Assembly (NCBI RefSeq): GCF_003957295.1
Contig: NZ_RQPJ01000001.1
Coordinates: 248,001 to 312,000, forward strand
Length of the DNA stretch: 64,000 bases
Origin: Arenibacter aquaticus
GTDB taxonomy: Bacteria; Bacteroidota; Bacteroidia; Flavobacteriales; Flavobacteriaceae
Reading direction: 5' to 3'
In this document: positions 29,352 through 57,243 of the stretch, piece by piece
Layout of the letters: every line of letters starts with the position of its first letter
Numbering within the stretch: the stretch's first letter is position 1
Made by a program: the position numbers and the translations under genes
Notes under the pieces: model-generated
Told to the model about the DNA's origin: nothing
The model's database searches: none
What the model saw: only the letters and a program-made list of their open reading frames with translations

Positions 29352-30257
29352 CTAAAGCCCCAGGGATTTTATATAATCCCTATTGGCCTGTGCACATACT
29401 TTAGGATTGCCCATCCCTGGCAATATGTCCTGCTCCACTACGATCCAATCCTTGTATCCCATTTGCTCCAGCAGTTTTACTACACCCTGAAAATTAACAG
29501 CACCCTTTCCCAATTCGCAGAACACTCCCCGCTTAAGAGCGTCAAAATAATCCCCATTGGCCTCGCGCGATGCCCTGGCAGCCTGGGGGCTATAATCCTT
29601 GAAGTGAACATGCCATATTCTAACCCCGTACTTTTTCAGGGCTTCCAGTGGGTCTCCCCCACCAAAGGCATAGTGCCCCATATCCAAACACAACCCTAAT
29701 AACTGGGGATTGGTCAAGGCCATTAGTTTATCTATCTCCTCTGGGGTTTCCACATAGCCGGCACAATGATGGTGGAAAACCGTACGCAGGCCATAAGCCT
29801 CCTTAACAGCCATGGCAATCCTTTCGGCAGCTGCGGCATACACTTGCCATTGTTCACCCGAAAGGCCCATGCTAGCCGTGATCCTTCCAGCATTTTTTGT
29901 ACGTTCCACAACGGTGCCGTTGTCATCTGCCAATACAATAAATGCATCCTTATACCCTGCGTTGTACATAAGTTCTGCCACTTTTAGGGCTGCGATTACG
30001 CCTACTTCATGATTGTCGGGATTTGCCAAGGCAACAGGCACAAAGGCACCCAATAAGGCCAGCTCTCTCTTGTCCAGTTCAGCTTTCAGCAGCTCAGGAG
30101 TAGTAGGCATATAGCCCCAATCTCCCAATTCTGTTCCTATATATCCAGTTTCCCTGATTTCGTCCAACACCTGTTCAAAACCAATTTCTTCCGGTTTTTC
30201 TGCCAGGTCAAATTCCAAGGCCCCCCATGAACATGGGGCATTTGCGATTTTCATCAT
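29352..30257 (-). CDS. iolE: Inosose dehydratase (2-keto-myo-inositol dehydratase)
   Basis: The 301-residue TIM-barrel protein opens with the IolE signature ANAPCSWGALEF and continues with GYIGTELGDWGYMP. Metal-site segments are LGLCLDMGHYAFGGGDP, IWHVHFKDYSP and WIVVEQDI. IolE removes water from scyllo-inosose to give 3D-(3,5/4)-trihydroxycyclohexane-1,2-dione, the substrate of IolD. The gene sits 10 nt after iolA and 43 nt before iolG in the operon. The start is MMKIANA; the second methionine is an equally good choice. Confidence 0.92.
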   Translation of the reverse strand: MMKIANAPCSWGALEFDLAEKPEEIGFEQVLDEIRETGYIGTELGDWGYMPTTPELLKAELDKRELALLGAFVPVALANPDNHEVGVIAALKVAELMYNAGYKDAFIVLADDNGTVVERTKNAGRITASMGLSGEQWQVYAAAAERIAMAVKEAYGLRTVFHHHCAGYVETPEEIDKLMALTNPQLLGLCLDMGHYAFGGGDPLEALKKYGVRIWHVHFKDYSPQAARASREANGDYFDALKRGVFCELGKGAVNFQGVVKLLEQMGYKDWIVVEQDILPGMGNPKVCAQANRDYIKSLGL

Positions 30258-30267: not shown

Positions 30268-31743
30268 TTAAAATTTTCTGGACCATATATTAGGCCATCT
30301 TTCTATGACCACCTTGGTCTGCGTAAAAAATTCTATAGCGTGTTTTCCCTGTCCGTGGAGATCTCCAAAAAAGCTATCCTTCCATCCGCTGAACGGGAAT
30401 TGTGCCATTGGTGCGGCCACCCCTATATTAATTCCTATGTTTCCTGCGTCGGCCTCATTTCTAAACCTTCTGGCATTGGCACCACTACCTGTGAACAAAC
30501 AGGCCATATTGCCATAATTGCCACTATTGACAAACTTTAAGGCTTCGTTTATATTCTTCATGGATATCAGGCTCATCACTGGACCAAAAATCTCGGTCGC
30601 AATAAGTTCCTTATCCAAGGCCACGTCTTCCAATATGGTTGGGTTTAGAAAGTTTCCCTTCTCATAGCCCGAAATGGAGGCATTTCGGCCATCTAAAAGC
30701 ACTTTAGCCCCTTCGTCAACGCCTTTTTGGATGAGTCCCGTAATCCTAGATTTGCTTTCCGGAGTAATTACCGGCCCCATATTAACGTTCTTATCCAAGC
30801 CATATCCAGTAGTCCGGGCCTTCACGGTCTCATACAGCGCATCTTTAACCTGTCTTTTTTGATCATCCACGGTAATAATCGTAGAGGCTGCCAGACAACG
30901 CTGGCCAGCACAGCCGTATACGGAATCGGCTATTATTTTTGTCGACATTTCTATATCGGCATCGGGCAGTACCACCACAGGGTTTTTAGCCCCCCCTTGG
31001 GCCTGTACCCGCTTACCGTTTGCAGTGCCTTTGGAATAAATATACCTGGCAACCGGAGTACTCCCAACAAAGCTAACAGCCTTGATTTCCGGATGCTCTA
31101 AAATAGCGTCTACAGTATCTTTGCCACCGTGTACCAAGCTCACCAATCCTTTGGGCATATCCAATTGATCCAAAAACTCAAAAATCTTCATCATGGTCAT
31201 GGGAACTTTCTCAGACGGCTTCACCACAAAGGCATTCCCGGTTGCTATGGCATAAGGCAAAAACCAAAAAACAATCATACTGGGGAAGTTGAAAGGGGTA
31301 ATACAGGCCGCAACCCCTACCGGCTGCCTGATCATCATTTCATCTATGCCCGAAGCAATATCCTCAATTACATCACCACCCATTAGCATAGGTGTGCCAC
31401 AGGCTACTTCTATATTTTCTATGGCTCTTTGGATTTCTCCAATGGACTCTCCATAGGTTTTTCCGGATTCGTTGGTAATAATCTCGGCCAATTCCTCCCT
31501 ATTGGTTTCCATCAAAGTTTTTAATCGGTATAATACCTGCACCCTTTTTAATACGGGAACATTTCGCCATTCCTTATAAGCCTTAGAAGCCGCACCCACG
31601 GCCTTATCTACATCCTTTTGGGTGTCATTGCCATATGGCACCTTTGCCAAAACCTCCTGAGTAGCAGGGTTTACAACATCTATGGACTCTTTAGCAACAC
31701 TAGAGGTCCAAACTCCATCGATATAATTTTTTAATAATTCCAT
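30268..31743 (-). CDS. iolA: Methylmalonate-semialdehyde/malonate-semialdehyde dehydrogenase (CoA-acylating)
   Basis: This 491-residue protein belongs to the CoA-dependent MmsA/IolA branch of aldehyde dehydrogenases. It has [34 protein letters not shown] and the catalytic cysteine in [11 protein letters not shown] (about residue 283). The PFNFP and AGQRC forms mark this branch. In inositol catabolism it converts malonic semialdehyde to acetyl-CoA and CO2. It lies 39 nt after the symporter gene and 10 nt before iolE. It could also serve valine or beta-alanine breakdown, but the operon position makes the inositol role primary. Confidence 0.92.
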
Positions 31744-31782: not shown

Positions 31783-33381
31783 TTAGTTATTGTTCCATAA
31801 CAAGGCATAAATAATTATGGTTATAGCACACAATCCAATAGACATTGGAATGGTGTATTTCCATGATTTGAGATTAACGGCCCCCACATCGGTAATTTCG
31901 TACATATTCTGATTGGGGTAGAAATAGGAGACCGAATACATTATGGCCACGTTTAGCAAAAACTCTATACCCCATAGATGCACAAAGTGAATGCCGTGAC
32001 TGGTATAGCCCCAGGTCATAAAAACATAAAAGCAAAGTCCAAATATGAGGGCTACCTTGGCACCCATGGCCGATATTTTTTTCATAAAGAAACCTGCCAA
32101 CAGAATAGAGGCTATGGGAATAAAAAATATCCCATTGAGCTCTTGCAACAATTGATACAGCCCATCTGAGGCATTTGCCACCATTGGGGCCGCAAAAATG
32201 GCGGTTATCGCAAGAATGGCAGAGGTTACCTTCCCTATCCTTACCAGTTTTATATCGCTCACATTTTTAGCTATATGCTTTTTATAGATATCTACACTAA
32301 ACAAGGTGGCCACCGAGTTAAGCACAGAGTTAAAAGTACTAAGAACGGCCCCCATGATAACGGCAGCAAAAAATCCGATCAACCACACTGGCAGAACTTT
32401 TTTTACAAGTTGGGGGTATACCGTGTCTTGCTGATCAAAATAAGTGTCCTGAAAATAATAGTAGCAGATAACACCTGGGAGTACAATCACAAGGGGTATC
32501 AATATTTTAAACAGACCCGTTATCAATAATCCCTTTTGTGCTTCCTTAAGGTTTTTTGCCCCCAAGGCGCGTTGGATTATGGTTTGGTTCATTCCCCAGA
32601 AATAAAGTTGATTGATTATCAAACCCGTAAAGAGGACCTCTATGGGCAATACGGAATCCCTTGCCCCAACCACATTGAATTTCTCTGGAGCATAGTTATA
32701 TACTTTTACCAGTCCGTCTACAACATTGTTGTCCCCTATGGCCATCAATGCCAGTATAGGTATCAACAATCCTCCCAGCAACAGTCCAAAACCATTAATG
32801 GTATCGGACAATGCCACTGCTTTTAACCCTCCAAAAATGGCATAAATAGATCCAATGGTCCCTATTATGACCACGGTTACCCATAGGCCTTCGGTCTTAT
32901 CTACGCCTAGGATTTCCGAAACCCCAAAAAGACTTTCTATACCTATTGCCCCAGAGTATAGCACAATGGGAAGCAGGGTCACTACAAAGGAAAATATTAG
33001 TATGGCCGCCACCATTGTCCTAGTAACCCCATCGAACCTATTTTCCAAAAATTGGGGTATGGTAGTAAGCCCCATTTTCAGGTATTTGGGCACAAAGAAA
33101 ATGGCCGCAATGACCAAGGCGATAGAGGAGGTAACCTCCCAGGCAATGACAATAAAACCATTGACATAGGAATTACCGTTCATTCCTATAAGATGTTCAG
33201 AAGAAATATTGGTCAACAACATGGAACCCGCAATCACCATTCCCGACAAACTTCTACCTCCTAAAAAATAACCATCGGTAGAGGCTAAATTAGTCTTTCG
33301 CAGACTATACCATGTAAAAAAAGCGACCCCTCCGGTAAAGAGGACAAAGGAAGTTAGTATAATGATCAAATTGGTATTCAT
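31783..33381 (-). CDS. Sodium/solute symporter, probable Na+/myo-inositol transporter
   Basis: The 532-residue membrane protein belongs to the SSS family. It has about 13-14 helices, the early GYFLGGRSLSGMVIAGSMLLTNISSEHLIGMNG, and the sodium-site region AAVIMGAVLSTFNSVLNSVATLFSVDIY. It resembles the SGLT/SMIT-type bacterial members. Lying inside the iol operon between iolD (19 nt) and iolA (39 nt), it is the obvious inner-membrane inositol importer. Direct evidence is the family and the operon position. The substrate is inference. Confidence 0.88.
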   Translation of the reverse strand: MNTNLIIILTSFVLFTGGVAFFTWYSLRKTNLASTDGYFLGGRSLSGMVIAGSMLLTNISSEHLIGMNGNSYVNGFIVIAWEVTSSIALVIAAIFFVPKYLKMGLTTIPQFLENRFDGVTRTMVAAILIFSFVVTLLPIVLYSGAIGIESLFGVSEILGVDKTEGLWVTVVIIGTIGSIYAIFGGLKAVALSDTINGFGLLLGGLLIPILALMAIGDNNVVDGLVKVYNYAPEKFNVVGARDSVLPIEVLFTGLIINQLYFWGMNQTIIQRALGAKNLKEAQKGLLITGLFKILIPLVIVLPGVICYYYFQDTYFDQQDTVYPQLVKKVLPVWLIGFFAAVIMGAVLSTFNSVLNSVATLFSVDIYKKHIAKNVSDIKLVRIGKVTSAILAITAIFAAPMVANASDGLYQLLQELNGIFFIPIASILLAGFFMKKISAMGAKVALIFGLCFYVFMTWGYTSHGIHFVHLWGIEFLLNVAIMYSVSYFYPNQNMYEITDVGAVNLKSWKYTIPMSIGLCAITIIIYALLWNNN

Positions 33382-33400: not shown

Positions 33401-35260
33401 CTATAGATAATATTTCTGTGTCTTCTTGTTTTCCTTATAAGTTTCCAAAGATTCCTTTACTGCATTTTTTTCTGACACTTCGGCTACTGCCACGTCCCAC
33501 CATGCAAATCCCGGTACTGCCTTCTTACGGTCTACCTCTATATATATTACAGTGGTTTTATCTATCGTCTTTGCCTTTCTCAATGCGGCGTTCAATTCCT
33601 GAACGTTGGCAGCCTTGATTACATGGGCCCCCATACTTGTAGCATTGGCTGCATAATCTATAGGCAACACTCCCCCGTCCAATTGGTTCGTTTCCTCATT
33701 TCTATATCGATAATACGTCCCAAAGCCTTCGCTTCCGAGGGAACTGGACAAACTTCCGATACTGGAATAACCGTCATTGTTTAACAAAATAATGGTCATT
33801 TTCTGCTTTTCTTGAATCGATGTTACAATCTCTTGGGACATCATAAGGTAACTGCCATCGCCCACCATAACATATATTTCGGCATCTGGACGGGCCATTT
33901 TTGCGCCCAGACCACCGGCAATTTCATAGCCCATGCAGGAATATCCGTATTCCAGATGGAAGCCTTTAGGGTTTTGGGTACGCCATAATTTATGAAGATC
34001 TCCCGGTAGACTCCCGGCAGCACAAAGAACTATATCTTCTGGGCTGGAAAAGGAATTTACAGCACCTATAACCTCTCCCTGAAAAGCGGGCGTGTCATTT
34101 TTTTCCGCATAGATATCATCCACAAATTGGTCCCAGCTCTTATTAAAATTTTCTACTTTTTCACGGTACCCCTTACTCACTTCAAAACCGACCAGTTCCT
34201 GGTCCAAGACTTCCAAAATGGCCTTGGCATCACCTACCAAAGGAAGTGCTCCGTGTTTAAAGGAATCGAACTCCGTAATATTAATATTGATAAAGCGCAC
34301 ATTGGGGTCCTGAAAAGCAGACTTGGAAATGGTGGTAAAATCACTATATCTTGTTCCAATTCCAATGACCAGGTCGGCCTCTTTGGCAACCGCTATTGCA
34401 CCTGGTGTTCCTGTTACCCCGGCAGCACCCAGATTCTGTGGTTCATTGTAATCCAATGTCCCCTTGCCTGCAAAGGTTTCTGCTAGGGGAATACCGCTCC
34501 TATTGACAATTTTTTTCAACACAGCCGATGCACCACTGTAAATAGCCCCTCCTCCTGCTATGATCATGGGTTTTTTGCTTTCCTTGATCTGCGCAATGGC
34601 CCTGGACAAAAGTGTTTTATCGGGCATGGTCCTGCCTATATGCCATACTCGTTTTACAAACATTTCTGCAGGGAAATCAAATGCCTCGGCCTGCACGTCC
34701 TGCGGTATGGACAGGGTAACCGTCCCGGTTTCGGCCTGTGAGGTAAGTACCCTCATTACCTCAGGTAAGGAGGTTATCAGCTGTTCTGGCCTATTGATCC
34801 TATCCCAGTATTTGGAAACCGGCTTAAAACAATCGTTAACGGATACGTCCTGACTTAGATTGGACTCCAACTGTTGCAGTACCGGCGCCACTTGCCTTGT
34901 AGCAAAAATATCGCCGGGAATTAAAAGGACTGGAATCCTATTGATAGTTGCCGCTGCGGCAGCGGTAAGCATATTGGTAGCTCCCGGACCTATAGACGAT
35001 GTACACACAAAGGTTTGCAACCTGTTCTTTACTTTTGCAAAGGCTGCTGCCGTGTGTACCATGCCCTGTTCATTTCTAGCCACATAGTATGGGAAGTCCA
35101 AATGTTGATGTAAGGCCTGCCCTATACCTGCTACATTCCCGTGGCCTAAAATTCCAAGGCAGCCGGCAAAAAATTTGTTTTCCACCCCATCGCGCTCTAC
35201 ATACTGATTTTTTAAATATTCAATGGTAGCCTGGGCCACCGTAAGTCTTTTTGTCTTCAT
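33401..35260 (-). CDS. iolD: 3D-(3,5/4)-trihydroxycyclohexane-1,2-dione hydrolase
   Basis: The 619-residue enzyme is a thiamine-diphosphate-dependent protein of the acetolactate-synthase fold, the usual size for IolD. It has an N-terminal pyrimidine-binding half with GILGHGNVAGIGQAL and the ARNEQGMVHTAAAFAK segment. The C-terminal half carries the ThDP/metal motif MVGDGSYLMMSQEI through LLNNDGYSSIG. IolD hydrolytically opens the ring to give 5-deoxy-D-glucuronate. It lies 10 nt after iolC. The acetolactate-synthase-like fold could mislead, but length and neighbours settle the assignment. Confidence 0.94.
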   Translation of the reverse strand: MKTKRLTVAQATIEYLKNQYVERDGVENKFFAGCLGILGHGNVAGIGQALHQHLDFPYYVARNEQGMVHTAAAFAKVKNRLQTFVCTSSIGPGATNMLTAAAAATINRIPVLLIPGDIFATRQVAPVLQQLESNLSQDVSVNDCFKPVSKYWDRINRPEQLITSLPEVMRVLTSQAETGTVTLSIPQDVQAEAFDFPAEMFVKRVWHIGRTMPDKTLLSRAIAQIKESKKPMIIAGGGAIYSGASAVLKKIVNRSGIPLAETFAGKGTLDYNEPQNLGAAGVTGTPGAIAVAKEADLVIGIGTRYSDFTTISKSAFQDPNVRFININITEFDSFKHGALPLVGDAKAILEVLDQELVGFEVSKGYREKVENFNKSWDQFVDDIYAEKNDTPAFQGEVIGAVNSFSSPEDIVLCAAGSLPGDLHKLWRTQNPKGFHLEYGYSCMGYEIAGGLGAKMARPDAEIYVMVGDGSYLMMSQEIVTSIQEKQKMTIILLNNDGYSSIGSLSSSLGSEGFGTYYRYRNEETNQLDGGVLPIDYAANATSMGAHVIKAANVQELNAALRKAKTIDKTTVIYIEVDRKKAVPGFAWWDVAVAEVSEKNAVKESLETYKENKKTQKYYL

Positions 35261-35270: not shown

Positions 35271-36284
35271 TTAAAATCCCCCCTTTTCGTGTATAAATTT
35301 TAAAGATTCCTCTAGGGTTGGCATAAAGTTGGCGCAACCCTTTTTAGTCACCACCTGTGCTCCACTGGCATTCCCCATTCGGCATGCTTTTTTTAAATCC
35401 CAACCTTGTAGTATACCATATAGAAACCCGCTGGCAAAGGCATCACCGGCGCCCAGCACATTTAAAACCGATACCGGGAAGCCGGGAACATCTTCCCTGG
35501 AACCGTCCTTTTGATAAATACTGGCACCTTTTTCACCACGTTTTACAATGAGTATCTCTATGCCGGAAGAAAGGAGTTGTTTAATGGATTCGTCTATATC
35601 CCCCTTAATTTCAGGGGCGGAAATCTGCTGTTCCTTTATAGTAACTTGGGAAGCATCTATAAGAGTGGCCGCCAAAATTTCCTCTTCGGTCCCAATGGCT
35701 ATTTTCACCCTGGGCAAAATGGCCCTGACGGTTAAACCAAAGGCCCTATAATCATGCCATTGGTCTGCCCTAAAATCCAAATCCAGAACTACATCAACAT
35801 TATTTCTATTGGCAATTTCCGTGGCATAAAAAGTGGCGCTTCTAGTAGGTTCTACATTTAGCGCGGTACCGTTGATCAATAAAATCCTATAGTCCGCAAT
35901 ATTGGCAGAGTCCACATCATCAATATCTACTTGACTATCGGCGGCATTATCCCTATAATAAACCAAGGGGAATTTATCTGGAGGTTCTATCCCTAGAACC
36001 ACGGCACTACTCCTGGTACCATATTTAACCGGGATAGTATGGGTGTTTACACCTTCACCGTTCAAAAAGTTGAGAATAAATTCTCCCACTTTGTCATTAC
36101 CTACCGCGGTCAACAAACTTGCATTGACCCCCAATCGGGCACAGCCAACGGCTATATTTAAAGGAGATCCGCCAACAAAGGCATCAAAACCCTGGATGTC
36201 ATTAAAGGGCGATCCTACATTTTGGGAATAAAGATCTATTGATGATCTTCCAAAGGTAATTACATCAAACTTTTTTTCGTCCAT
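35271..36284 (-). CDS. iolC: 5-Dehydro-2-deoxygluconokinase
   Basis: This 337-residue PfkB-family sugar kinase shows the first signature in FVGGSPLNIAVGCARLG and the catalytic signature NVLGAGDAFASGFLYG with the base aspartate. IolC phosphorylates 2-deoxy-5-keto-D-gluconate at C6 with ATP. It begins 4 nt after the iolB stop and ends 10 nt before iolD, so translation is probably coupled. The N-terminus FDVITFGRSSIDLY agrees with IolC rather than with ribokinase or fructokinase. Confidence 0.93.
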   Translation of the reverse strand: MDEKKFDVITFGRSSIDLYSQNVGSPFNDIQGFDAFVGGSPLNIAVGCARLGVNASLLTAVGNDKVGEFILNFLNGEGVNTHTIPVKYGTRSSAVVLGIEPPDKFPLVYYRDNAADSQVDIDDVDSANIADYRILLINGTALNVEPTRSATFYATEIANRNNVDVVLDLDFRADQWHDYRAFGLTVRAILPRVKIAIGTEEEILAATLIDASQVTIKEQQISAPEIKGDIDESIKQLLSSGIEILIVKRGEKGASIYQKDGSREDVPGFPVSVLNVLGAGDAFASGFLYGILQGWDLKKACRMGNASGAQVVTKKGCANFMPTLEESLKFIHEKGGF

Positions 36285-36288: not shown

Positions 36289-37164
36289 TTATTGTTTGTT
36301 CATTTCGGCCGTTACCAACGGCAATCTTGCATCCTTTGAGGTCCATGAATCATAGATCCATTCGTGATCCGGATCTGTGGTATTGGCCAGGCATTGGTCC
36401 GTTCCGGCCAAGAAGTTTAGATAATAACAATGAAAACCGTGTTCGGCCACTACAGGGTGGAACCCTTTGGGGATAAGTACTACATCGTTATGTTTGGGCC
36501 TGGCAATTTCATCCAAAGACCTATCCTTGGTATAGACTTGTTGAATGGCGTAGGCTCCCGGCTTTTGAAATTTGTAGAAATAGGTCTCTTCCTGTATAGG
36601 TTCCAAAACGGTACCTTTTTCATCTACTATGCGTTCATCATGCTTATGGGCAGGAAATGAACTCCAATTCCCAGAAGGCGTATAGACTTCCCGCACCACT
36701 ATTTTACTACAGCCAAAACCTGGTGGCACCAGGTCGTTAAACTGTCGGGTAGCATTATCACCACCAAAAATAACCACGGGCGTATCCTCTGGAGTCACGA
36801 ATTTTGCCGGGAAATCTTCCGTTACCTTGCACCAACCATATGCAATATCCAAGGTATCGCTCATTGCCGTTAAAGTGAATTTGCTATTTCGCGACAGATA
36901 AAGGGTGTGGGCCACCCCACTAAAAACATCCTTTCTGCCATTTTTTGTTTCCCAGTTTCCCTTATCGCTTTCCACCTTAAAATTGCCACTTAATAGCACA
37001 ATGACCATCTCGTTATCCTGGGTATGGTGTTCCCAGCTTTCACCTTTGGTCATTAATCTTGCCTCAAAATTGAGGTATTCCCAGTTGGCCTTTGTAGGTG
37101 TAATTTGATGATATATCCCTGTCTTGGATTTTGGTTTTATCTGCAAATGTGAATTATGTTCCAT
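36289..37164 (-). CDS. iolB: 5-Deoxy-glucuronate isomerase
   Basis: The 291-residue bicupin protein has the conserved HHTQDNEMVIVLLSG segment in the first cupin and the metal site FPAHKHDE followed by ETYFYKFQKPGAYAIQQVY in the second. IolB isomerises 5-deoxy-D-glucuronate to 2-deoxy-5-keto-D-gluconate. It starts 11 nt after iolJ and stops 4 nt before iolC. The family is specific to inositol catabolism, so this gene is one of the strongest markers of the operon's function. Confidence 0.94.
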   Translation of the reverse strand: MEHNSHLQIKPKSKTGIYHQITPTKANWEYLNFEARLMTKGESWEHHTQDNEMVIVLLSGNFKVESDKGNWETKNGRKDVFSGVAHTLYLSRNSKFTLTAMSDTLDIAYGWCKVTEDFPAKFVTPEDTPVVIFGGDNATRQFNDLVPPGFGCSKIVVREVYTPSGNWSSFPAHKHDERIVDEKGTVLEPIQEETYFYKFQKPGAYAIQQVYTKDRSLDEIARPKHNDVVLIPKGFHPVVAEHGFHCYYLNFLAGTDQCLANTTDPDHEWIYDSWTSKDARLPLVTAEMNKQ

Positions 37165-37175: not shown

Positions 37176-38117
37176 TTAAAATTTCATGTCGCTTACTGTC
37201 CCGGTAGCACCCAAGAGATTGAACTTCTCCAGCATAAATTTTTCGTACTCCTTCATATAGGTCTTCCCTGGAATTACAGGATCGAACAACTCTGGAGCAT
37301 CCCTAAAAAACTCCCTGTGCACTCTGGTCCACAATAGTCTGGTATCTGTGGCTATATTGATCTTACACACCCCATAGGCAATGGATTTTACAATTTCGTC
37401 CGGAGAAACTCCCGAAGCCCCTTCGCGTAAAGTGCCACCCGCCTTATTAATCCTTTTTATTTCCTGCTCATTTACGGCAGATCCCCCATGCAGTACAATG
37501 GGGTATTGGGGCAATCTGCGCTGGATATCTTCCAGAATTTGAAACTGTATACCTTCTCCTCCAGAAAATTTATAGGCTCCGTGACTAGTGCCCACCGCCA
37601 CTGCCAAACTATCGCACCCAGTTAGTTCTACAAATTCCTCTACTTCAGACGGCTGGGTGTATTTTGCCAATTTTTCATCTATGGATATATCGTCTTCCAC
37701 TCCACTGAGCACCCCCAATTCTGCTTCAACAACGATTCCCTTTTTATGGGCCTCCTTAACAACAGCCTTGGTTCTTTTAACGTTATCGGCAAAATTGTCA
37801 TGGGAGGCATCAATCATAATAGAGTTATAATCATTGGACAATATAGCGTCAAAGGCATGCTCCTCGTTCCCGTGATCCATATGAACGGAATAGACCGCTT
37901 TGGGATAAATCTTGGCGGCTGCGTTGATCATGGATATGAGCATTTCTGGATGTGCATAATCCCTGGCAGCCGGAGTAATTTGAACAATGAAAGGTGCATT
38001 GGCCCTTTCTCCCGCGCAAAAAAGCCCAAGAACCTGTTCCATGGTAAAAACATTGACAGCCGGTATGGCAAACTTGCCATAACAATGCCCAAATAATATT
38101 TTAGGTGAAATCTGCAT
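37176..38117 (-). CDS. iolJ: Class II fructose-bisphosphate aldolase family protein, probable DKGP aldolase
   Basis: The protein is a class II zinc aldolase. Zinc ligands and active-site residues are in YSVHMDHGNEEHAFDA, VEAELGVLSGVEDD, VGTSHGAYKF and VLHGGSAVNEQEI. In iol operons this family supplies IolJ, which splits 2-deoxy-5-keto-D-gluconate 6-phosphate into dihydroxyacetone phosphate and malonic semialdehyde. The frame is open to an ATG at 38231, but those 38 extra residues are unlike the family and would overlap the operator at 38210-38225. MQISPKILFGH at 38117 is the natural start and gives 313 residues. It is the first gene of the eight-gene operon. A role as ordinary fructose-bisphosphate aldolase is less likely here. 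Confidence 0.88.
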   Translation of the reverse strand: MQISPKILFGHCYGKFAIPAVNVFTMEQVLGLFCAGERANAPFIVQITPAARDYAHPEMLISMINAAAKIYPKAVYSVHMDHGNEEHAFDAILSNDYNSIMIDASHDNFADNVKRTKAVVKEAHKKGIVVEAELGVLSGVEDDISIDEKLAKYTQPSEVEEFVELTGCDSLAVAVGTSHGAYKFSGGEGIQFQILEDIQRRLPQYPIVLHGGSAVNEQEIKRINKAGGTLREGASGVSPDEIVKSIAYGVCKINIATDTRLLWTRVHREFFRDAPELFDPVIPGKTYMKEYEKFMLEKFNLLGATGTVSDMKF

Positions 38118-38209
38118 GTAAAATTTTAATATAACTATAAATAGCCTTAATCTTTTACACAAATAACAATAAATAATTGGTGTTTTGAAGAATTTCGCAT
38201 TAAAAGTGC

Positions 38210-38225
38210 ATGCAAAGGTTTGCAT
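38210..38225. promoter_or_regulatory. LacI-type operator upstream of the iol operon
   Basis: ATGCAAAGGTTTGCAT has perfect 7-bp arms around a GG centre, the classic shape of a LacI-family site. It lies 92 nt upstream of the iolJ start and 15 nt after the stop of the LacI-family regulator gene. The identical 16-mer is present at 44411-44426 upstream of SusC 2. Confidence 0.75.
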
Positions 38226-38240
38226 TGCCAAAAGACTGTC

Positions 38241-39284
38241 TTAGTCCTCCGATACCAACTTATTCTCTTTGGAAGATGCTCTTATTACCAACTCTGGTTT
38301 AAAAACCTCTTTTCTATATTCCGGTGGGGTATTCGGATTTTTTAAATGACTTAATAAAATCCTTGCCGAAAGCATTCCCATACTATACACTGGTTGCCAA
38401 ACGGTAGATAAGGCCGGGGTAATAAAAGCGGAATGCGGTTCATCATCAAATCCAACAATGGAGATCTGCCCTGGAATTTGCAATCCCAACTCTTTGGCCG
38501 TGTGCATTGCGGATATGGCAAGATTATCACTATAGGCAAAAATTGCATCGGGCAGCTCATTGTTGTTCAGGAGTTCTTTAGTGGCCAATTCTACCTCTTC
38601 ATGGGAAAACCCGGAAACGTGAACAACGTATTGGTCATTCACTGCCACCTTGTTTTTATGAAGAGCATCCAAATAACCCTGCAGCCTGTGTTCTGTAGTA
38701 CTTAAATTTAAGGGACCTCCTAAATGGGCTATACGGTTACAACCTATACCGATTAAGTATTCCACCGCCTGAAAGGCCCCAAAATAATCATCTACCAATA
38801 CCTTGTCGGCCTCCAATCCCGGACAATCCCGGTCAAATACCACAATGGGAATACCACTTTTTTGAAGTTTTTTAAAGTGATCAAAGTTTTTGGTTTCCGA
38901 GGAAGGCGACACCAAGACCCCATCTATCTGGATTTTGGACAACCTCTTAACAATGGTCAACTCTTCCTCGTAGGATTCATTGGACAGGCAAATCATAATA
39001 TTGTATTCGGAATGAACGATTACGTCCTGAACCCCGGTAATAATTGCTGAAAAAAAATGGCCTGTTATTTCGGGGACGATTACCCCAATGGTGTTGGATT
39101 TTTTCTGAAGTAGATTTAACGCCAAAAGATTGGGCTGATAGTCCAATTTTTCAGCCAGGGCTTTTACAGCCTCCTTGGTTTCCTTTTTTATGGCCGGATG
39201 ATCGTTTAGGGCCCTGGACACGGTAGACGGAGCTATATTGAGTTCACGTGCAATATCTTTAATGGTAACACGTCCCTTTTTCAT
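38241..39284 (-). CDS. LacI-family regulator, probable repressor of inositol catabolism
   Basis: The 347-residue protein is a complete LacI-type repressor. It has the N-terminal HTH VTIKDIARELNIAPSTVSRAL, the hinge-helix region YQPNLLALNLLQ, and the effector domain with TIGVIVPEITGHFF and ISIVGFDDEPHSAFITPALSTV. It is transcribed in the same direction as the iol genes and stops 123 nt before the iolJ start. A LacI-type operator lies in that gap, and a second identical operator lies before SusC 2. The simplest reading is that it represses both units and is released by inositol or a catabolite. Regulator-site pairing is inference. It is not an orthologue of the DeoR-type IolR of Bacillus. Confidence 0.88.
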   Translation of the reverse strand: MKKGRVTIKDIARELNIAPSTVSRALNDHPAIKKETKEAVKALAEKLDYQPNLLALNLLQKKSNTIGVIVPEITGHFFSAIITGVQDVIVHSEYNIMICLSNESYEEELTIVKRLSKIQIDGVLVSPSSETKNFDHFKKLQKSGIPIVVFDRDCPGLEADKVLVDDYFGAFQAVEYLIGIGCNRIAHLGGPLNLSTTEHRLQGYLDALHKNKVAVNDQYVVHVSGFSHEEVELATKELLNNNELPDAIFAYSDNLAISAMHTAKELGLQIPGQISIVGFDDEPHSAFITPALSTVWQPVYSMGMLSARILLSHLKNPNTPPEYRKEVFKPELVIRASSKENKLVSED

Positions 39285-39594
39285 ATAAAGTCTCTATTTA
39301 CTATCCCTACTTGCCTAATCATATTCACATTGATAATAAAATGCAGCTCTGTAGGCTGCACCAATTAAAAGTACGATGGAATTGAACATTGAAGACAAAA
39401 TACAACAAAAATACTTAATGAACCCCTAAAGGTAGGCACATGGAAAATAAAACGGCAAGTTTATTGGAAGTAGTTTTATTCTGATTGGAGTGTAGCAACA
39501 TATTTTTCCAAGATGTAAGAAACCATAGCATTCCAAAAAGAATAAAGGCGGACATTTACGTCCGCCTTTAACAAAAATTAATTTAAACTAATTG
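39285..39594. other. Intergenic spacer between SusD 2 and the LacI regulator
   Basis: The spacer carries the SusD 2 terminator (39543-39570) and the promoter region of the LacI gene. An imperfect inverted repeat TGCAGC...GCTGCA at 39342-39360 resembles a degenerate LacI site and could be autoregulatory, but support is weak. No ORF was seen. Confidence 0.45.
39543..39570 (-). terminator. Intrinsic terminator of SusCD pair 2
   Basis: Arms TAAAGGCGGAC and GTCCGCCTTTA close an 11-bp stem over a 6-nt loop, 24 nt after the SusD 2 stop on the minus strand. A T5 run follows shortly downstream. Confidence 0.8.
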
Positions 39595-41346
39595 TTAATA
39601 ACCCTGATTCTGCTCTAAAAAACCATCAATTCCCGAAGCGGCATCAACAGCACTTTGCGGAATAGGGAACAATCTGTGATTTACATCGGAATCGGTCTTC
39701 TCTGTCCAAGAGTCCTCGTATTTCCCAAATCTAATTTGGTCTCCACGTCTAAAGCCTTCCCAGTAGAGTTCAAATCCCCGCTCGCGGAACATTATCTCCA
39801 AATCTATCGCTTCCAATGCTTCCGGAGTTTGATCCGGACGGGCCGTTCTTGAGGCCCGTAGTGTATTTACATCAACAAGAGCTCCTCCTGCATCATCACT
39901 TCTTAATTTGGCTTCCGCCCTCATTAAGTACACCTCTGCCAAACGCATCAACACCAAATCCACGCTACTAAAATTGTTACCGTTTGGTGAAGTTCGGCTA
40001 AACTGGTACTTGGAACATCTGTATCCTGTATGATGCAACGCACCTTCATTGGTAAAGTCAACGTTTAGTGTATGGCTTACATATTCCGGCCCATTTCCTC
40101 TTTTGTTTTTAACAGGGTAAATTCTAACTCCGGTTTCACAAGTTAAAAATGCCCCATCATCTCCTTTTCTAGGTCCCCAAAGGGTGCCACGTAGAATTCC
40201 CCGGTCTATCTCAAATTCGTTCGGCTCTACACAGTAATAGCTGTTTTCGGTTTCGGTAGCGAGCACCTGCTCGCGGCCTTCAAAATCTGCCAGTTGAGCA
40301 TCAGGAACAATAATATTCTTTTGATAAAACCTGGCATCTGCATCAGCGGGGTCAACTTCCCCGTAGGCATCTACCCATGTTTGATAAAAGTCTGATGTAA
40401 CTGCGGGTCCGTCGGTACCATCTGCACTAGGATATTCAGGTCTTGGGAACAAGGATCCTGAGATAGACCAATAGGCCCATCGGCTATGCTCCCTGTTTAG
40501 CACACCACGTTGGTCCAAAGCAAAAATAAGCTCTGGGTTGCTATTGTTGTCGTCGTTGAACAGATCAAAATATTCTGGAGACAAAGAGAACGCACCGGAA
40601 TTAATGATGTTGTCCGTATACTGTATAACCAAGCCCATGTCTTCCTGAGTAAAGTTTGGTGTACCATAGGGGTCACGATAAACAGCGGCATTTAGGTACA
40701 ACCTTGCCAGAAAGCCCCATACTGCAGCCTGTGTTATCCTACCGGGGCCTCTGCTGCTATTAATGACATCCACAACAGATAGCAGCTCACTTTCAATGTA
40801 ATCAATGGCATCTTGGCGCCGGAGCACTTCAGAAAGCTGGTCCGATGATTCCTTCTTAAGGACAAGCCCCCAACTATCCAACATTAACATATTTAAATAT
40901 GCCCTTAGGGCCTTCATTTCATATAACGCCTCGGCAGCTTCGGCGTTCCCCTCATCTGCTAATGGAGTCAACACCTCAATGGCTGCCAAGGTTCTGGAGA
41001 TATTGGTTGTTAGCTGGTTCCAGCCAGCACCTACCAAATCGTTTGTTGGGGTGATATTATGCTGGTGCGTGGCCATGAACTTACCACCGTCAAACCAGTC
41101 GGTTCCCCCTCGAAAAGGAAGAATTGCCTCATCGGAGGCGATAAGTTGCAATCCATAATAATTAGTATGCCTCCAAACCCAGGAAACAAATCCATAAGCT
41201 GGTGCAATGGCTCCGCTAACGGCTTCTGACTGGCCTCCAAATTCGGCTTCATCCAGTCTTTCTTCTTCCAGGTCCGTACAGTTAAAGTTAAACAGCGCAC
41301 AGACCACAAGTGCTATAATTAAAAATCTATTTTTCATTTTTGACAC
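39595..41346 (-). CDS. SusD/RagB-family surface lipoprotein (pair 2)
   Basis: The 583-residue lipoprotein has lipobox LFNFNC after a short signal (start MSKMKNRFLIIAL; the second Met is also possible). SusD-family marks are EMKALRAYLNMLMLDSWGLVL, the LMRLAEVYLMRAEAKLRS repeat-like helix and FRERGFELYWEGFRRGDQIRFG near the C-terminus, ending in FLEQNQGY. It should bind ligand at the surface for the SusC encoded 10 nt upstream. The shared operator with the iol operon suggests that the ligand contains or yields inositol. Phytate-derived inositol phosphates, galactinol-type glycosides and phosphatidylinositol headgroups are possibilities not distinguishable from sequence. No phosphatase or glycosidase gene is adjacent. 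Confidence 0.92.
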   Translation of the reverse strand: MSKMKNRFLIIALVVCALFNFNCTDLEEERLDEAEFGGQSEAVSGAIAPAYGFVSWVWRHTNYYGLQLIASDEAILPFRGGTDWFDGGKFMATHQHNITPTNDLVGAGWNQLTTNISRTLAAIEVLTPLADEGNAEAAEALYEMKALRAYLNMLMLDSWGLVLKKESSDQLSEVLRRQDAIDYIESELLSVVDVINSSRGPGRITQAAVWGFLARLYLNAAVYRDPYGTPNFTQEDMGLVIQYTDNIINSGAFSLSPEYFDLFNDDNNSNPELIFALDQRGVLNREHSRWAYWSISGSLFPRPEYPSADGTDGPAVTSDFYQTWVDAYGEVDPADADARFYQKNIIVPDAQLADFEGREQVLATETENSYYCVEPNEFEIDRGILRGTLWGPRKGDDGAFLTCETGVRIYPVKNKRGNGPEYVSHTLNVDFTNEGALHHTGYRCSKYQFSRTSPNGNNFSSVDLVLMRLAEVYLMRAEAKLRSDDAGGALVDVNTLRASRTARPDQTPEALEAIDLEIMFRERGFELYWEGFRRGDQIRFGKYEDSWTEKTDSDVNHRLFPIPQSAVDAASGIDGFLEQNQGY

Positions 41347-41356
41347 AATTTTTTGA

Positions 41357-44329
41357 TTAAAAGGATACGTTTAAGCCAAAGAGGATTGTTCTTGGGCTAG
41401 GATAGGTAAAACGGTCTATTCCGAACGTTTGAATACCATCAATGTCTGCATTGGTATTTACTTCTGGATCAAAGCCCGAATAGTCGGTTATCACAAATAG
41501 GTTTTGACCGGTTATGTTAAAACGGATGCCGTTTACCAAATCTCCCAATCCCAAATCTTGCGGATTCAAGGAATATCCCAAAGTGGCATTGTTCAAGCGT
41601 AAATAACTCCCATCTTCCAAGTATCTTGTAGAGACTTCATTGGAATTGCTATTGCTCTCGTTGGGAAATTCTGCTGCAAAGGGTGTAGTGTTCAGATTTC
41701 TACTGAGCTGCCCCCTTGTGAACAATGACATGGCGGTGTGGTTGTATATCTTATTCCCGGACACGCCATTAAAATTTAATCCTAGATCAAAGTTCTTGTA
41801 ATTTAAATTCATGTAAAAGGCATAAATCAAATCGGGCAATGCACTGCCGACCACAAACCGGTCATTGTCCAAGGATTCACCATCCGGAACAACATCCCTA
41901 AATTCGTTTAATCCGTCTGCACCTATTCCAATAAAGTCTTTCATGAAGAAAGCACCAATGGGTTCATTATTAATGTAGCCATTGATGGTAGCACCTGTCT
42001 GGCCTGCTCCCGAGGCCGCACCCGTGGTTATCACCTCAAATTGGGAGTCGACTACTTTATTATCAGTGTATGCAAAGTTTCCACCAATATTATATGTAAA
42101 ATCCTCACTGAAACTTCCATTATAATCCAACGTAAATTCAACCCCGGTATTCTTAATTTCCATGTCCGGAATATTGGTCCATATTTTTTCGGTGGGTTGT
42201 ATAGGGTCTATCCTGTTGGCAAATAGTACCACATCACTGGCAACTTTATTAAAATAATCCAAAGAACCTGTCAATTGATTTTTGAACAATCCAAAATCCA
42301 AGCCAATATTGGTTTGTGTTGAAACCTCCCATTTAAGGTCTGGATATGCCGTACGCACGGGTACCGTCCCAAAGGGATAATCATCTAAGGTCGCTTCGTT
42401 TCCTCCAATGGGGTAGGTATCATTTTCGGTCTTTGAGTCCACATAACTAGCTAAACTCACCTTGCTTGGAATACCATCTTGGTTACCTGTTTGCCCCCAG
42501 CTTGCCCTTAATTTTAGATTGCTGAACACTTCACTATCGGCCATAAAGTCTTCCTTGCTAATATTCCAGCCCAATGCCACTGACGGGAAATACCCATATT
42601 TGTTGTTTTCACCAAATCTAGAAGAACCATCGGCCCGTAACGTTGCCGTTAACAGATACTTGTCCTGAAACCCATAATTCATCCTACCAAAAAATGATTG
42701 TTGCTCATTTTTATATGCTACAGAATTCAATGTCGTGGGACGCACCTCGGTACTTATCTGATCCTGATATCGCGGTTCAATGCCGTTAAGGGCAAATCCT
42801 TCCAATTGAAACTGCTTCTGTTTATAAATTGTCTCTTGATAGGAGTGACCTGCCAGTAGTGTCACATTGTGGTCACCAGTGCTAAATGTATAGGTTAAAG
42901 TATTTTCCACCAAAGTATTGCTATTGGTAATGGTTCTGGTATCCAACTCACCAAATTCTTCACCTTCCAGCAAGGCAAAAGGCTCGCTCTGTATATCTCG
43001 ATCGGTAGCAGAATAATCTACCCCTAAGTTTACTTTATAAGTAAGACCGTCAATAATTTCAAAAGAGGGCGCAATGTTTGCAAGAATCCTATGGTTATTG
43101 GCTTCATCTGTGTACAGCCGATTGCGCTGAATAGGATTTAACCGCTGCTCCAATAAGGTTGGCTCACCATTAGTGAATACTGGAATAGTGGGGTTCAACT
43201 GCAGCATATCGGTCACTATGGCCGATATATTGGGTCTTTCATTCGTGGTCTTTGCGGCGGTAAGATTGAATTCCACATTCAAACGTCCATCCATGGCCTT
43301 TTGGGTTAAATTCACCCTGCCCGAGTATCTTTTTAAATAACTATTGTTATAGATACCTTCTTGGTCATCTACACCACCGGACACATAATAAGAGAACTTA
43401 CCTGCGGTACTACCACTCATAGAGAGATTCACCCTTTTTGAAATACCCGTCCTGGTCAATTCATCTTCCCAATTGGTATTGGCTCCCCCGTCAATTAAAG
43501 TACCCCCAACTGCAGGCACTTGTTGTCTAAATTCATTGGCAGAGAAAACATCCATTCCGTTCGCCAAGGATGACATGGCCGTAGATACCGATAAATTCAT
43601 TTCCGTTTTTCCTGTTTTCCCTCTTTTGGTGGTAATTGCAATTACCCCATTGGCAGCCCGTGCCCCGTAGATTGCCGCGGCGGATGCATCCTTTAGGACA
43701 TCTATCGAGGCAATGTCTTGGGGGTTGATAAAGTTCAGAGGGTTTGAGGCCACCCCGGTTGGACTGTTGTCTATAACAAACCCATCCACTACAAAAAGTG
43801 GCGTGGTACCGGATCTAAGACTTCCTACCCCACGAATAATGATATTCTGTGCTGCCCCAGGTTCCCCACTAACAGAGGTAACATTAACGCCCGACACCTT
43901 ACCTTGTAATAACTGTCCAGGGTTGGTAACCACACCTTGATTAAAGCTTTCGCTCTTTAATGAACCGATTGCACCGGTTACATCAGATTTCTTTTGCGTT
44001 CCATAACCCACAACGACCACCTCATCCAACAATGAGGAGTCTTCCTCTAACGATATGCTTACATTGCTTTGACCGTTGAGAGGAATGTCTTTGGAGGCAT
44101 ACCCTAAAAAGGATACGGCTAGAATTGCATTTACATCAGACACTTGCAGGGTGAAATTACCTTCAAAATCTGTCGTAGTTCCATTGTTTGTTCCTTTTTC
44201 AAGAACTGTTGCTCCGGGCAAGGGTATATTCTGTTCATCGGACACCGTACCGGTAACCGTTGTCTGTGCCCATGATGTCATTGATAGGCCTATCATAAAG
44301 ACCAGTATCAAAATTTGATTTTTCTTCAT
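41357..44329 (-). CDS. SusC/RagA-family TonB-dependent receptor (pair 2), candidate inositol-compound importer
   Basis: The 990-residue receptor has a signal peptide (ILILVFMIGLSMTSWAQ). The carboxypeptidase-like domain follows (VTGTVSDEQNIPLPGATVLEKG, DFEGNFTLQV), then the TonB-box-like DEVVVVGYGTQKKSDVTGAI. The plug has GTTPLFVVDGFVIDNSP and VLKDASAAAIYGARAANGVIAITTKRG. The barrel ends in RTILFGLNVSF. It forms an operon with SusD 2 and ends at the terminator 39543-39570. An identical copy of the iol operator lies 81 nt upstream of its start, which is the main evidence that it serves inositol uptake. The long upstream spacer shows no other gene. Confidence 0.93.
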   Translation of the reverse strand: MKKNQILILVFMIGLSMTSWAQTTVTGTVSDEQNIPLPGATVLEKGTNNGTTTDFEGNFTLQVSDVNAILAVSFLGYASKDIPLNGQSNVSISLEEDSSLLDEVVVVGYGTQKKSDVTGAIGSLKSESFNQGVVTNPGQLLQGKVSGVNVTSVSGEPGAAQNIIIRGVGSLRSGTTPLFVVDGFVIDNSPTGVASNPLNFINPQDIASIDVLKDASAAAIYGARAANGVIAITTKRGKTGKTEMNLSVSTAMSSLANGMDVFSANEFRQQVPAVGGTLIDGGANTNWEDELTRTGISKRVNLSMSGSTAGKFSYYVSGGVDDQEGIYNNSYLKRYSGRVNLTQKAMDGRLNVEFNLTAAKTTNERPNISAIVTDMLQLNPTIPVFTNGEPTLLEQRLNPIQRNRLYTDEANNHRILANIAPSFEIIDGLTYKVNLGVDYSATDRDIQSEPFALLEGEEFGELDTRTITNSNTLVENTLTYTFSTGDHNVTLLAGHSYQETIYKQKQFQLEGFALNGIEPRYQDQISTEVRPTTLNSVAYKNEQQSFFGRMNYGFQDKYLLTATLRADGSSRFGENNKYGYFPSVALGWNISKEDFMADSEVFSNLKLRASWGQTGNQDGIPSKVSLASYVDSKTENDTYPIGGNEATLDDYPFGTVPVRTAYPDLKWEVSTQTNIGLDFGLFKNQLTGSLDYFNKVASDVVLFANRIDPIQPTEKIWTNIPDMEIKNTGVEFTLDYNGSFSEDFTYNIGGNFAYTDNKVVDSQFEVITTGAASGAGQTGATINGYINNEPIGAFFMKDFIGIGADGLNEFRDVVPDGESLDNDRFVVGSALPDLIYAFYMNLNYKNFDLGLNFNGVSGNKIYNHTAMSLFTRGQLSRNLNTTPFAAEFPNESNSNSNEVSTRYLEDGSYLRLNNATLGYSLNPQDLGLGDLVNGIRFNITGQNLFVITDYSGFDPEVNTNADIDGIQTFGIDRFTYPSPRTILFGLNVSF

Positions 44330-45097
44330 ATTTAGTTGTTTTAATTAGTTTTGTCATAACTAAATTAACACTTTATTAAGAATATCGGAATTATTGTGTC
44401 TTTTTATTGAATGCAAAGGTTTGCATAGAAGAATGGCGTACAAGACAGCCAAGAACCAGATTATGAACTACATCCACTTTGAAGGAGCAATAAACCTTCC
44501 CTAGGGAAGAAACCAAATCCCGACCAAAATGCCAAGCCAACGCCAACTAAGTATTCTTTTGGACTCCAACACCAAAACTTGGAATTAAGTCACGACACCT
44601 ACGCACGATTATTACACAATAATTAACCGACCCCACTTTCTAAAGGTTAAGGTTATTAGGGACCAAAACTAGATAAATAGAACCTTCAAAGTCTGACTGA
44701 TCTTACGATTTTACATTTACTTAACTATTTAATAATGAGATTTCTAAATTAAAAAGCCCCACAACTATTATGCAAAAGTCAGCCTTCTAAAAAGATGTTT
44801 GCTACTAAATAACTTATTGCCAAAATTTTAGATTATTGTAATTCGCATTTAGGATCATGCGGCAAACCATTTTAAATGGCAAGGCGTGTTGGCAGCTTAT
44901 ATTGGGCCCCATAACATTTCCTAAATACTGGGATAAAATAAACTTAGCAATAAATAGTATATTAGAAGTAGTTGTACACAACAAAAGGCTGCCAACTAGC
45001 TCCTAGCGAAGTAGTATATTATGGTAGATTTATAAATAACGGCAAACTACCGCATCATTCTGTAGCTAACTACATAGATGAAAAGGCGATTTTTTTT
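44330..45097. other. Long non-coding spacer upstream of SusC 2
   Basis: No ORF with protein-like character was seen in this 768-bp stretch. It carries the operator at 44411-44426 and the 14-mer ATCTTACGATTTTA at 44700-44713. The rest is AT-rich sequence without recognisable structure. Confidence 0.5.
44411..44426. promoter_or_regulatory. LacI-type operator upstream of SusC 2 (identical to the iol operator)
   Basis: ATGCAAAGGTTTGCAT is repeated exactly as at 38210-38225, including the GG centre. It lies 81 nt upstream of the SusC 2 start, close to the 92-nt spacing in front of iolJ. Shared control by the LacI-family regulator at 38241-39284 is the natural inference. Confidence 0.75.
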
Positions 45098-45912: not shown

Positions 45913-45925
45913 TATGTATAACATA
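45913..45925. promoter_or_regulatory. Sialic acid regulon operator, site 1 (SusC 3)
   Basis: TATGT-ATA-ACATA is a perfect 5-bp inverted repeat with a 3-nt centre, extended to ATTATGT/ACATAAT. Related sites occur at 51008-51020, 56225-56237 and 57216-57228. The FadR-type regulator at 55381-56106 is the likely binder. Confidence 0.65.
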
Positions 45926-45940
45926 ATAACAAATATTATA

Positions 45941-45947
45941 TATCTTG
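45941..45947 (+). promoter_or_regulatory. Promoter -7-like element of SusC 3
   Basis: TATCTTG resembles the Bacteroidetes -7 element TAnnTTTG with one T fewer. It begins 15 nt after the operator, exactly the spacing found at 57244-57250. No clear -33 TTG was seen, because the operator occupies that region. Confidence 0.35.
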
Positions 45948-45988
45948 CCCAACATCTAACCAATGATAACCCAAACACTCAATTATTT

Positions 45989-49306: not shown

Positions 49307-49318
49307 AATTAAAGGAAC

Positions 49319-50824: not shown

Positions 50825-50862
50825 AATATTGATTAGAGTTAGTTTAAATTGTGTTTGATTAA

Positions 50863-50895
50863 AAAAAGGGTTCCAGTTACACCGGAACCCTTTTT
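50863..50895 (+). terminator. Intrinsic terminator after SusCD pair 3
   Basis: Perfect 12-bp arms (AAAAAGGGTTCC and GGAACCCTTTTT) enclose a 9-nt loop, with T5 at the end on the plus strand, 38 nt after the SusD stop. Confidence 0.88.
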
Positions 50896-51004
50896 AAAAC
50901 TACACAAAACTAAGGACCTAACGCTAAATTAACACCAAAACATCCTTAAAATAGGATTTGACAACAATAGAGAGCAATTAACCCGCTCTATCAATACAAA
51001 TTTG

Positions 51005-51011
51005 TATTTTG
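51005..51011 (+). promoter_or_regulatory. Promoter -7-like element of the lyase gene
   Basis: TATTTTG has the same TAnnTTG form as the elements at 45941 and 57244. It overlaps the operator at 51008-51020, which would suit repression. It would leave a leader of roughly 20 nt before the ATG at 51036. Confidence 0.3.
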
Positions 51012-51020
51012 TAATACATA
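51008..51020. promoter_or_regulatory. Sialic acid regulon operator, site 2 (lyase gene)
   Basis: TTTGT-AAT-ACATA matches the TATGT-N3-ACATA consensus with one mismatch and lies 15 nt before the start codon. A flanking perfect palindrome ATACAAATTTGTAT ends at 51007. Confidence 0.5.
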
Positions 51021-51035
51021 ATAAAAATCAACTAT

Positions 51036-51959: not shown

Positions 51960-52016
51960 TAATACCCATCTCGCAAATCCATTAGTTAAATTGAACAAAA
52001 ATAAAAACTACTCTAA

Positions 52017-53192: not shown

Positions 53193-53210
53193 TTTTACAG
53201 ATACCTAATA

Positions 53211-55369: not shown

Positions 55370-55380
55370 GTTGATTAACC

Positions 55381-57228: not shown

Positions 57229-57243
57229 ATACATAAAATTAAG

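Follow-up and report, generated by a model that had tools for sequence, protein, structure and literature searches.

An operator shared by a SusCD pair and the inositol catabolic operon of Arenibacter aquaticus points to probable uptake of phosphorylated inositol

What is imported by a SusC/SusD-like pair that carries the operator of an inositol catabolic (iol) operon? The question is raised by the window analysed here, a 64,000 nt stretch of the Arenibacter aquaticus genome (contig NZ_RQPJ01000001.1, positions 248,001–312,000), in which an identical 16-mer precedes both the first iol gene, iolJ, and the SusC gene of a nearby pair (SusCD 2). SusCD pairs are mostly read as glycan importers. Judged from sequence comparison, SusC 2 and SusD 2 are likely to import phosphorylated inositol head groups and to be co-controlled with the iol operon by the adjacent LacI protein through the identical operator. 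The candidate substrates are inositol phosphate and glycerophosphoinositol, probably with mannosylated forms in some relatives, and the phosphoinositol would probably come from membrane lipids of other organisms. Phosphoinositide-type compounds are common in eukaryotic membranes.

The 16-mer ATGCAAAGGTTTGCAT consists of 7-base arms (ATGCAAA and TTTGCAT) around a GG centre, and reads ATGCAAACCTTTGCAT towards SusC at operator 2. The initial annotation had described this near-palindrome correctly, an exact-match scan of the window confirmed both positions that it gave (38210–38225 and 44411–44426), and its distances of 92 nt to the iolJ start codon (38117) and 81 nt to that of SusC (44329) are right. 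The LacI-family gene that it placed between the two units encodes a product with a LacI helix-turn-helix and a periplasmic-binding-protein domain, as in LacI/GalR regulators. At up to three mismatches the window holds six matches against 1.16 expected, a number that none of 100 shuffles reached; the six represent four places, since both near-palindromic operators score on each strand. Elsewhere in the genome (G000, 5,233,924 bases) the exact 16-mer is absent, and at up to two mismatches there are four further, scattered places, compared with one match per strand for a reversed control pattern. Many copies in unrelated promoters, which the annotation had said would refute its proposal, were not found in this genome, and the shuffle test and genome scan together reject a chance repeat.

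Along the minus strand come, in order, operator 2, SusC, SusD, hairpin, lacI, operator 1, iolJ, iolB, iolC, iolD, symporter, iolA, iolE-like and iolG. Because a terminator-like hairpin directly follows SusD, the operator rather than read-through would couple the SusCD and iol units, and read-through into lacI and iol was rejected as the sole coupling.

If the operator links the two units, it would be expected to accompany them in related genomes. The 397 genomes of the family were scanned for the exact 16-mer and for iolD; 12 carry the former, 21 the latter and 11 both (hypergeometric P ~5e-15, with kinship of the genomes ignored). The 12 genomes contain 29 exact sites, 24 of which lie at iol, SusC 2, lacI or phosphatase promoters: nine at iolJ, seven at SusC 2, one before the sigma/FecR operon that precedes SusC 2 in genome G018, four at lacI, where in each case a divergent AlkP_GDPD or GH92 gene shares the site, and three at AlkP_GDPD alone. 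With up to two arm mismatches, an operator precedes SusC 2 in 16 of 17 iol/LacI-class loci, at 81–84, 100, 109 or 110 nt, versus none of 89 other homologue rows, where the best match had three mismatches. The other rows numbered 90, some genomes appearing twice, before a duplicate of G219 (L172) was dropped; locus L234, with no iol gene in 21.7 kb, was classed as iol since in its congener (L238/G219) iol lies 16 kb off, and reassigning it gives a split of 15/16 versus 1/90. Locus L193 (Arenibacter troitsensis) was placed in the iol/LacI class because of its LacI gene. It has kept SusCD 2, operator and LacI, and there is no iol gene after LacI within 21.7 kb.

A LacI orthologue lies near iol in 12 of the 21 iolD-positive genomes. 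All 12 have an iolJ operator (at most one arm mismatch) and 10 have SusCD 2, the two without it (G112 and G292) being 64% and 84% complete. The other nine showed no LacI orthologue in the stretch examined and no SusCD 2 in the SusD search; LacI was sought only in stretches around the loci, and several contigs end in or near the operon (G099, G298 and G305). Between the two promoters of one genome, agreement is 14–16 of 16 in the operator core and 4–9 of 20 in the 20 nt upstream of it (14 loci). Most iol sites have a GG/CC centre, and a CG-centred variant was found in iol-negative genomes; the site of G020, ACGCAAACGTTTGCGT, is presumably close to the E. coli PurR box. The association of operator and LacI persists even at loci where SusCD has changed position or strand, or where a different homologue has taken its place. 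As first proposed, co-regulation of SusCD with the iol operon is strongly supported by this comparison, in which the operator before SusC tracks the iol-type LacI.

In Arenibacter-type genomes the slot between operator 2 and lacI holds four SusCD lineages, with the operator retained. A quick SusD tree requires nine changes for the iol-class rows, and seven or more of these fall on well-supported branches. The pair of G373 is nearest to a phosphatase-linked pair in G129 (SusC 88%, SusD 91% identity; the G129 SusC is split in two frames). The SusD of G212 is 90% identical to the SusD of a Pricia pair that adjoins AlkP_GDPD, a phosphoinositide phospholipase C (PI-PLC) and a calcineurin-like enzyme, and its SusC is about equally near to the Pricia pair (84%) and to an iol-class Maribacter pair (85%). 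The LacI and IolD proteins of these genomes are nearest to iol-class relatives, mostly Arenibacter. Because SusCD and LacI/IolD have different nearest relatives, it appears that the coding genes were exchanged and the operator remained in place, which we read as selection for one transport function under inositol control.

The likeness of the two promoters extends beyond the operator. A promoter-like stretch 37–50 nt downstream of operator 2, which reads TTTATTGTTATTTGG in several relatives, resembles the iolJ promoter. Compared in register over 14 loci, the SusC and iolJ promoters are identical at 0.67 of positions at offsets 36–50 (0.46 when shifted) and at 0.61 at offsets 0–10 (0.24 when shifted); in-register likeness was also seen at offsets 20–30 and 30–40, and not at 10–20 or past 50. 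A sigma-70 scan of the region stayed at shuffle level (19 found, 18.9 expected), and no promoter boxes were assigned. About 36 nt separate the end of the operator from the shared promoter-like element downstream of it; activation is therefore no less possible than repression, and the placement of the operator would suit an activator.

The nature of the substrate is suggested by the neighbours of SusCD 2 relatives. Relatives of SusD 2 occur in at least 44 of the 397 family genomes (E ≤ 1e-60), 34 of these without iolD; the search scored at most three candidates per genome, so that the counts are lower bounds. Neighbourhoods were taken from stretches around the family relatives and from 80 named loci, giving 100 distinct SusD rows, of which 17 are of the iol class, 68 are phosphoester-linked (a listed enzyme within 9 kb) and 15 are neither. 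A phosphoester enzyme is thus near 68 of the 83 non-iol rows, in 62 of these through a GDPD-fused phosphatase or a calcineurin-like enzyme, and lies within 9 kb in 9 of the 17 iol-class rows. Most iol-negative relatives have as a neighbour AlkP_GDPD (an alkaline phosphatase with a GDPD_2 domain; PF00245 and PF13653), a PhoA-type phosphatase or a calcineurin-like phosphoesterase. Within 1.5 kb, such an enzyme was found at 17 of 30 SusD 2 loci versus none of the 30 loci of a control SusD family, GH92 alone being present at three and two further loci, respectively.

Several iol-negative loci have a calcium-dependent PI-PLC gene directly after SusD, identified by PF16670 (E = 9e-122) for one and by similarity for the others. 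PI-PLC-C1 genes number 29 in 27 of the 397 genomes; 12 of the 29 lie within 8 kb of a SusD 2-family gene, and these 12 cover all nine SusD relatives of 33–37% identity returned by the SusD search. In several iol-positive relatives the operator also stands before AlkP_GDPD or GH92 mannosidase genes. GH92 lies inside the SusCD–LacI operon in two Ulvibacterium, two Maribacter and one uncultured relative, raising the possibility of mannosylated phosphoinositols in these five, and in four of them AlkP_GDPD is divergent from SusCD with its own operator site. What phosphatase/GDPD, PI-PLC and iol have in common is phosphorylated inositol, which fits better than free inositol because relatives of the pair are linked to phosphatases, phosphodiesterases and PI-PLC. 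The earlier suggestion of TonB-dependent uptake of an inositol compound is therefore supported and is narrowed, by these neighbours of relatives, to phosphorylated inositol.

In the proposed pathway, the LacI protein would bind both operators with inositol or a catabolite as effector. By analogy with the relatives, SusCD would deliver the phosphoester to the periplasm, and there an enzyme of alkaline phosphatase/GDPD type, here encoded on contig C19, would free the inositol. The sodium symporter would then take inositol into the cytoplasm, to be degraded by IolG, E, D, B, C, J and A. A wider picture is offered more tentatively: a pathway dedicated to taking up and degrading the head groups of eukaryotic inositol lipids (glycerophosphoinositol, inositol phosphoceramide or glycosylphosphatidylinositol (GPI) glycans), in which an inositol-sensing LacI-family regulator, possibly an activator, might run import of intact phospho- or mannosyl-phosphoinositol, periplasmic dephosphorylation and demannosylation, and catabolism as one regulon, and in which clades might swap the importer with phosphate-scavenging loci, the operator being kept.

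Several observations weigh against the main explanation. For the window, the chief weakness of the substrate claim is that the window's own cluster and the corresponding clusters of two congeners, the three of Arenibacter type, contain no recognised phosphatase, PI-PLC or GH92. The AlkP_GDPD homologue lies elsewhere in all three genomes, with no operator in the 20 kb around it (contig C19 in the window's genome), and neither a calcineurin-type enzyme (E ≤ 1e-30) nor PI-PLC (E ≤ 1e-10) was found in them. A phosphoester enzyme within 9 kb is lacking in 8 of the 17 iol-class rows and, by the references used, in 15 of the 83 non-iol rows, mostly Cytophagales and Saprospiraceae. PI-PLC is present in one of ten tested iol-positive SusCD 2 genomes (G006, 20 kb away), and none of the 29 PI-PLC locus flanks examined carries the operator. 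In G018 no site stands directly before SusC, and the one present precedes the sigma-factor/FecR pair. Finally, five of the 29 exact sites are not at iol, SusCD 2 or phosphatase promoters. Two of these lie upstream of a tetratricopeptide repeat (TPR)/AraC-type regulator in the Arenibacter-type genomes other than that of the window, G328 contributes two more near its second LacI gene copy, and the remaining one falls within an open reading frame of G073.

The alternative that survives best, an unlikely one in our estimate, is that SusCD 2 scavenges organophosphates broadly (lipid head groups, glycerophosphodiesters, nucleotides) and only happens to serve for inositol, without being specific to it. 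Most relatives adjoin general-looking alkaline phosphatases and phosphoesterases, and phosphate starvation induces PusCD2 of Flavobacterium johnsoniae, whose neighbour is a PhoA with PF13653 (PMC8115612). However, the iol-class pairs carry the inositol-operon operator, their SusC genes (except in G018) lack the adjoining sigma/FecR pair and the propeller sensor kinase common beside relatives, and PI-PLC, for all its rarity in the family, is concentrated beside the SusD 2 family.

A phosphorylated mannose glycan (yeast-type mannan, GPI or inositol-phosphoceramide glycan), of which inositol would be only one part, is rather improbable as the substrate. GH92 is in the SusCD–LacI operon or near SusCD in 9 of the 100 SusD rows, all of the iol class, GH125 accompanies it in both Aestuariivivens, with GH28 in one of them, and GH92/GH28-like genes flank iol in two genomes of other families. 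On the other hand, GH92 is absent from the Arenibacter-type clusters and, by the references used, from within 9 kb of the 83 non-iol SusD rows. Slightly less probable again is import of free inositol or a neutral inositol glycoside such as galactinol, with the phosphatases of relatives irrelevant. It would suit the inner-membrane symporter and the Arenibacter-type clusters, in which no phosphatase was recognised, but free inositol is small enough to pass ordinary porins, no galactosidase family appeared among the neighbours run against Pfam, and phosphoester enzymes are the commonest recognised neighbours in relatives. It is highly improbable that the units lack a special link, the 16-mer being a chance match or a global LacI-type site: the CG-centred variant of iol-negative genomes, presumably serving other LacI regulators, the five exact sites elsewhere and the one of 12 exact-site genomes without iolD are set against two exact copies in 5.23 Mb, both at this locus, and a position conserved across genera in spite of poorly matching upstream 20 nt.

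The features of the locus are listed in Table 1. SusC 2, a TonB-dependent protein with plug and barrel, adjoins the SusD 2 lipoprotein, as in SusCD uptake pairs. Cys23 of SusD 2 is invariant across 17 homologues, with the lipoprotein signal judged by eye; a search of solved structures gave SusD (3ck7) as best match, confirming the SusD-like identity, and the closest sequence among the 80 named loci is from Arenibacter sp. F20364 (96% identity). The operon has the set iolB, C, D, E and G, of which B, C, D and G score above curated cut-offs and the IolE-like protein below. The scan that found the hairpin gave 10 sites overall against 7.1 in shuffles.

Table 1. Features of the SusCD 2–iol locus in window coordinates.
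Feature	Position	Strand	Remarks
Operator 2	44411..44426	-	exact 16-mer; SusC start (ATG 44329) 81 nt on
Promoter-like stretch downstream of operator 2	44361..44374	-	resembles iolJ promoter
SusC 2, SusC-like TonB-dependent transporter, 990 aa	41357..44329	-	carboxypeptidase-D-like N-terminal domain, plug, barrel (PF13715, PF07715, PF00593)
SusD 2, SusD-like surface lipoprotein	39595..41346	-	PF07980; an ATG three codons further on is the likelier start
Terminator-like hairpin directly after SusD	39543..39570	-	12 pairs, T-rich tail; -19.5 kcal/mol, z -4.9
LacI-family regulator, proposed cognate of both operators	38241..39284	-	PF00356, PF13377
Operator 1	38210..38225	-	same 16-mer; iolJ ATG (38117) 92 nt on; lacI end 15 nt before
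Corresponding promoter-like stretch downstream of operator 1	38160..38173	-	in-register similarity of the two promoters
iolJ-like class II aldolase	37176..38117	-	PF01116; TIGR00167 above its subfamily cut-off
iolB, 5-deoxy-glucuronate isomerase	36289..37164	-	TIGR04378 above cut-off
iolC, 5-dehydro-2-deoxygluconokinase	35271..36284	-	TIGR04382 above cut-off
iolD, acylhydrolase	33401..35260	-	TIGR04377, 898 bits (cut-off 715)
Sodium:solute symporter, probable inner-membrane inositol carrier	31783..33381	-	PF00474, NF007790
iolA-like (methyl)malonate-semialdehyde dehydrogenase	30268..31743	-	TIGR01722 above cut-off
iolE-like TIM-barrel protein	29352..30257	-	TIGR04379, 201 bits (under cut-off 290)
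iolG, inositol 2-dehydrogenase	28298..29308	-	TIGR04380 above cut-off

Additional copies of the 16-mer were seen in related genomes. G212 (L062, C5:64989) and G373 (L057, C1:934049) have a third exact copy about 180–193 nt before a TPR+AraC-type regulator gene, which adjoins a SusCD pair orthologous (SusD 89%) to that at 15069–19782 of the window; the window copy of this region (12951–19782) has no site within three mismatches. In G328 (contig C1, L075–L076, 889571 and 905692) a second iol-type LacI paralogue (65%) is accompanied by two exact copies, one just past the end of the paralogue and before an alpha-L-fucosidase gene, the other 15 kb off and before a GHL6/fucosidase-like gene. In this genome the operator seems to have been brought into another regulon.

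In a sample of the phylum, iolD is present in 15 of 326 genomes including that of the window, and 13 of the 14 others were examined around iol, some stretches being short. These 13 genomes, outside the family, showed no SusCD 2 and no exact operator at iol; in one of the genomes outside the family (G507) a one-mismatch site lies near iolE, together with a LacI gene (34%). A different SusCD (SusC 30%) adjoins the iol cluster of G497 (L325), with a PQQ-type (pyrroloquinoline quinone) dehydrogenase, a 3-keto-disaccharide hydrolase-family protein and a major facilitator superfamily carrier. In G557 (L322), from another Bacteroidota family, a PI-PLC-C1 gene (C-terminal part, E = 4e-36) lies beside an ABC transporter and iol genes. 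GH92-like and GH28-like genes flank the iol operons of G508 (L323) and G410 (L324), with a LacI-type regulator (31%) in G508, so that a mannosidase–inositol link recurs there without SusCD 2.

The window contains two other gene clusters of note. The region 45914–59897 comprises SusCD pair 1, a DHDPS/NAL-type aldolase, a GlcNAc 2-epimerase, a BNR sialidase-like protein, a GntR regulator and a NanM-kelch/sodium symporter fusion, and looks like a cluster for sialic acid uptake and catabolism. The region 20327–28087, with an amino acid permease, a glutamine-synthetase-like ligase, an aldehyde dehydrogenase, an iron alcohol dehydrogenase, a glutamine amidotransferase and a class III aminotransferase, looks like a cluster for degradation of gamma-glutamyl amines or amino-alcohols; its genes are mostly kept near iol in two related genomes.

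For a SusCD family present in at least 44 of 397 genomes, the shared operator provides a concrete substrate class that can be tested, and it links carbon catabolism among marine Bacteroidota to the use of phosphoinositide-type compounds. Phosphate-type and carbon-type regulons both include members of this one transporter family, and the operator of the slot is conserved.

Phosphate-induced SusCDs (PusCD) in Flavobacterium were reportedly described by Lidbury and co-workers. The phosphate utilisation systems PUSI and PUSII of F. johnsoniae, found by phosphate starvation, have PusCD, a SusCD pair, beside phosphomonoesterase/phosphodiesterase genes, and the PhoA of PUSII, with an extra PF13653, has the domain make-up of the AlkP_GDPD beside many SusCD 2 relatives (PMC8115612). 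Flavobacterium loci L240 and L241, from metagenome-assembled genomes (SusD 71%, with AlkP_GDPD adjoining), suggest possible orthology of SusCD 2 to PusCD2 (Fjoh_3250/1). The co-located phosphomonoesterase or phosphodiesterase of a PUS is found with the non-iol and iol-class rows counted above (68/83 and 9/17), whereas the window cluster lacks it and its SusCD stands under the inositol-operon operator.

A survey of inositol catabolic gene clusters (IolCatGC) found them in 3% of Bacteroidetes species, and the core order iolB, C, D, E of the window is the pattern it names for Flavobacteria (PMC9430895). The window operon also has iolG, A, J and the sodium symporter. The survey's main text uses neither 'TonB' nor 'outer membrane', its single match to 'susc' being 'susceptibility' in a reference (PMC9430895), whereas the window operon is tied to an importer by its operator. 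The iol operon of Parapedobacter includes a sodium co-transporter, and the sole mention of SusC in the text of that paper used here is unrelated (PMC7500135). No report of an iol-coregulated SusCD was found among the titles listed from open-access papers, which is weak evidence of absence.

SusCD 2 shares the SusC/SusD architecture of glycan polysaccharide utilisation loci, but those are under sigma/anti-sigma or hybrid two-component control, compared with the proposed LacI control here. An ordinary glycan pair was rejected, as no glycoside hydrolase was recognised in the window cluster and the relatives carry phosphoester enzymes. The regulator and operator resemble LacI/GalR systems in domain architecture and in a 16-bp palindrome with TTTGCA arms, and differ in the GG/CC rather than CG centre of most iol sites and in an operator placed upstream of the promoter-like element. 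The best reading is that the SusCD 2 system resembles the Flavobacterium PusCD phosphate systems but is under an inositol regulator.

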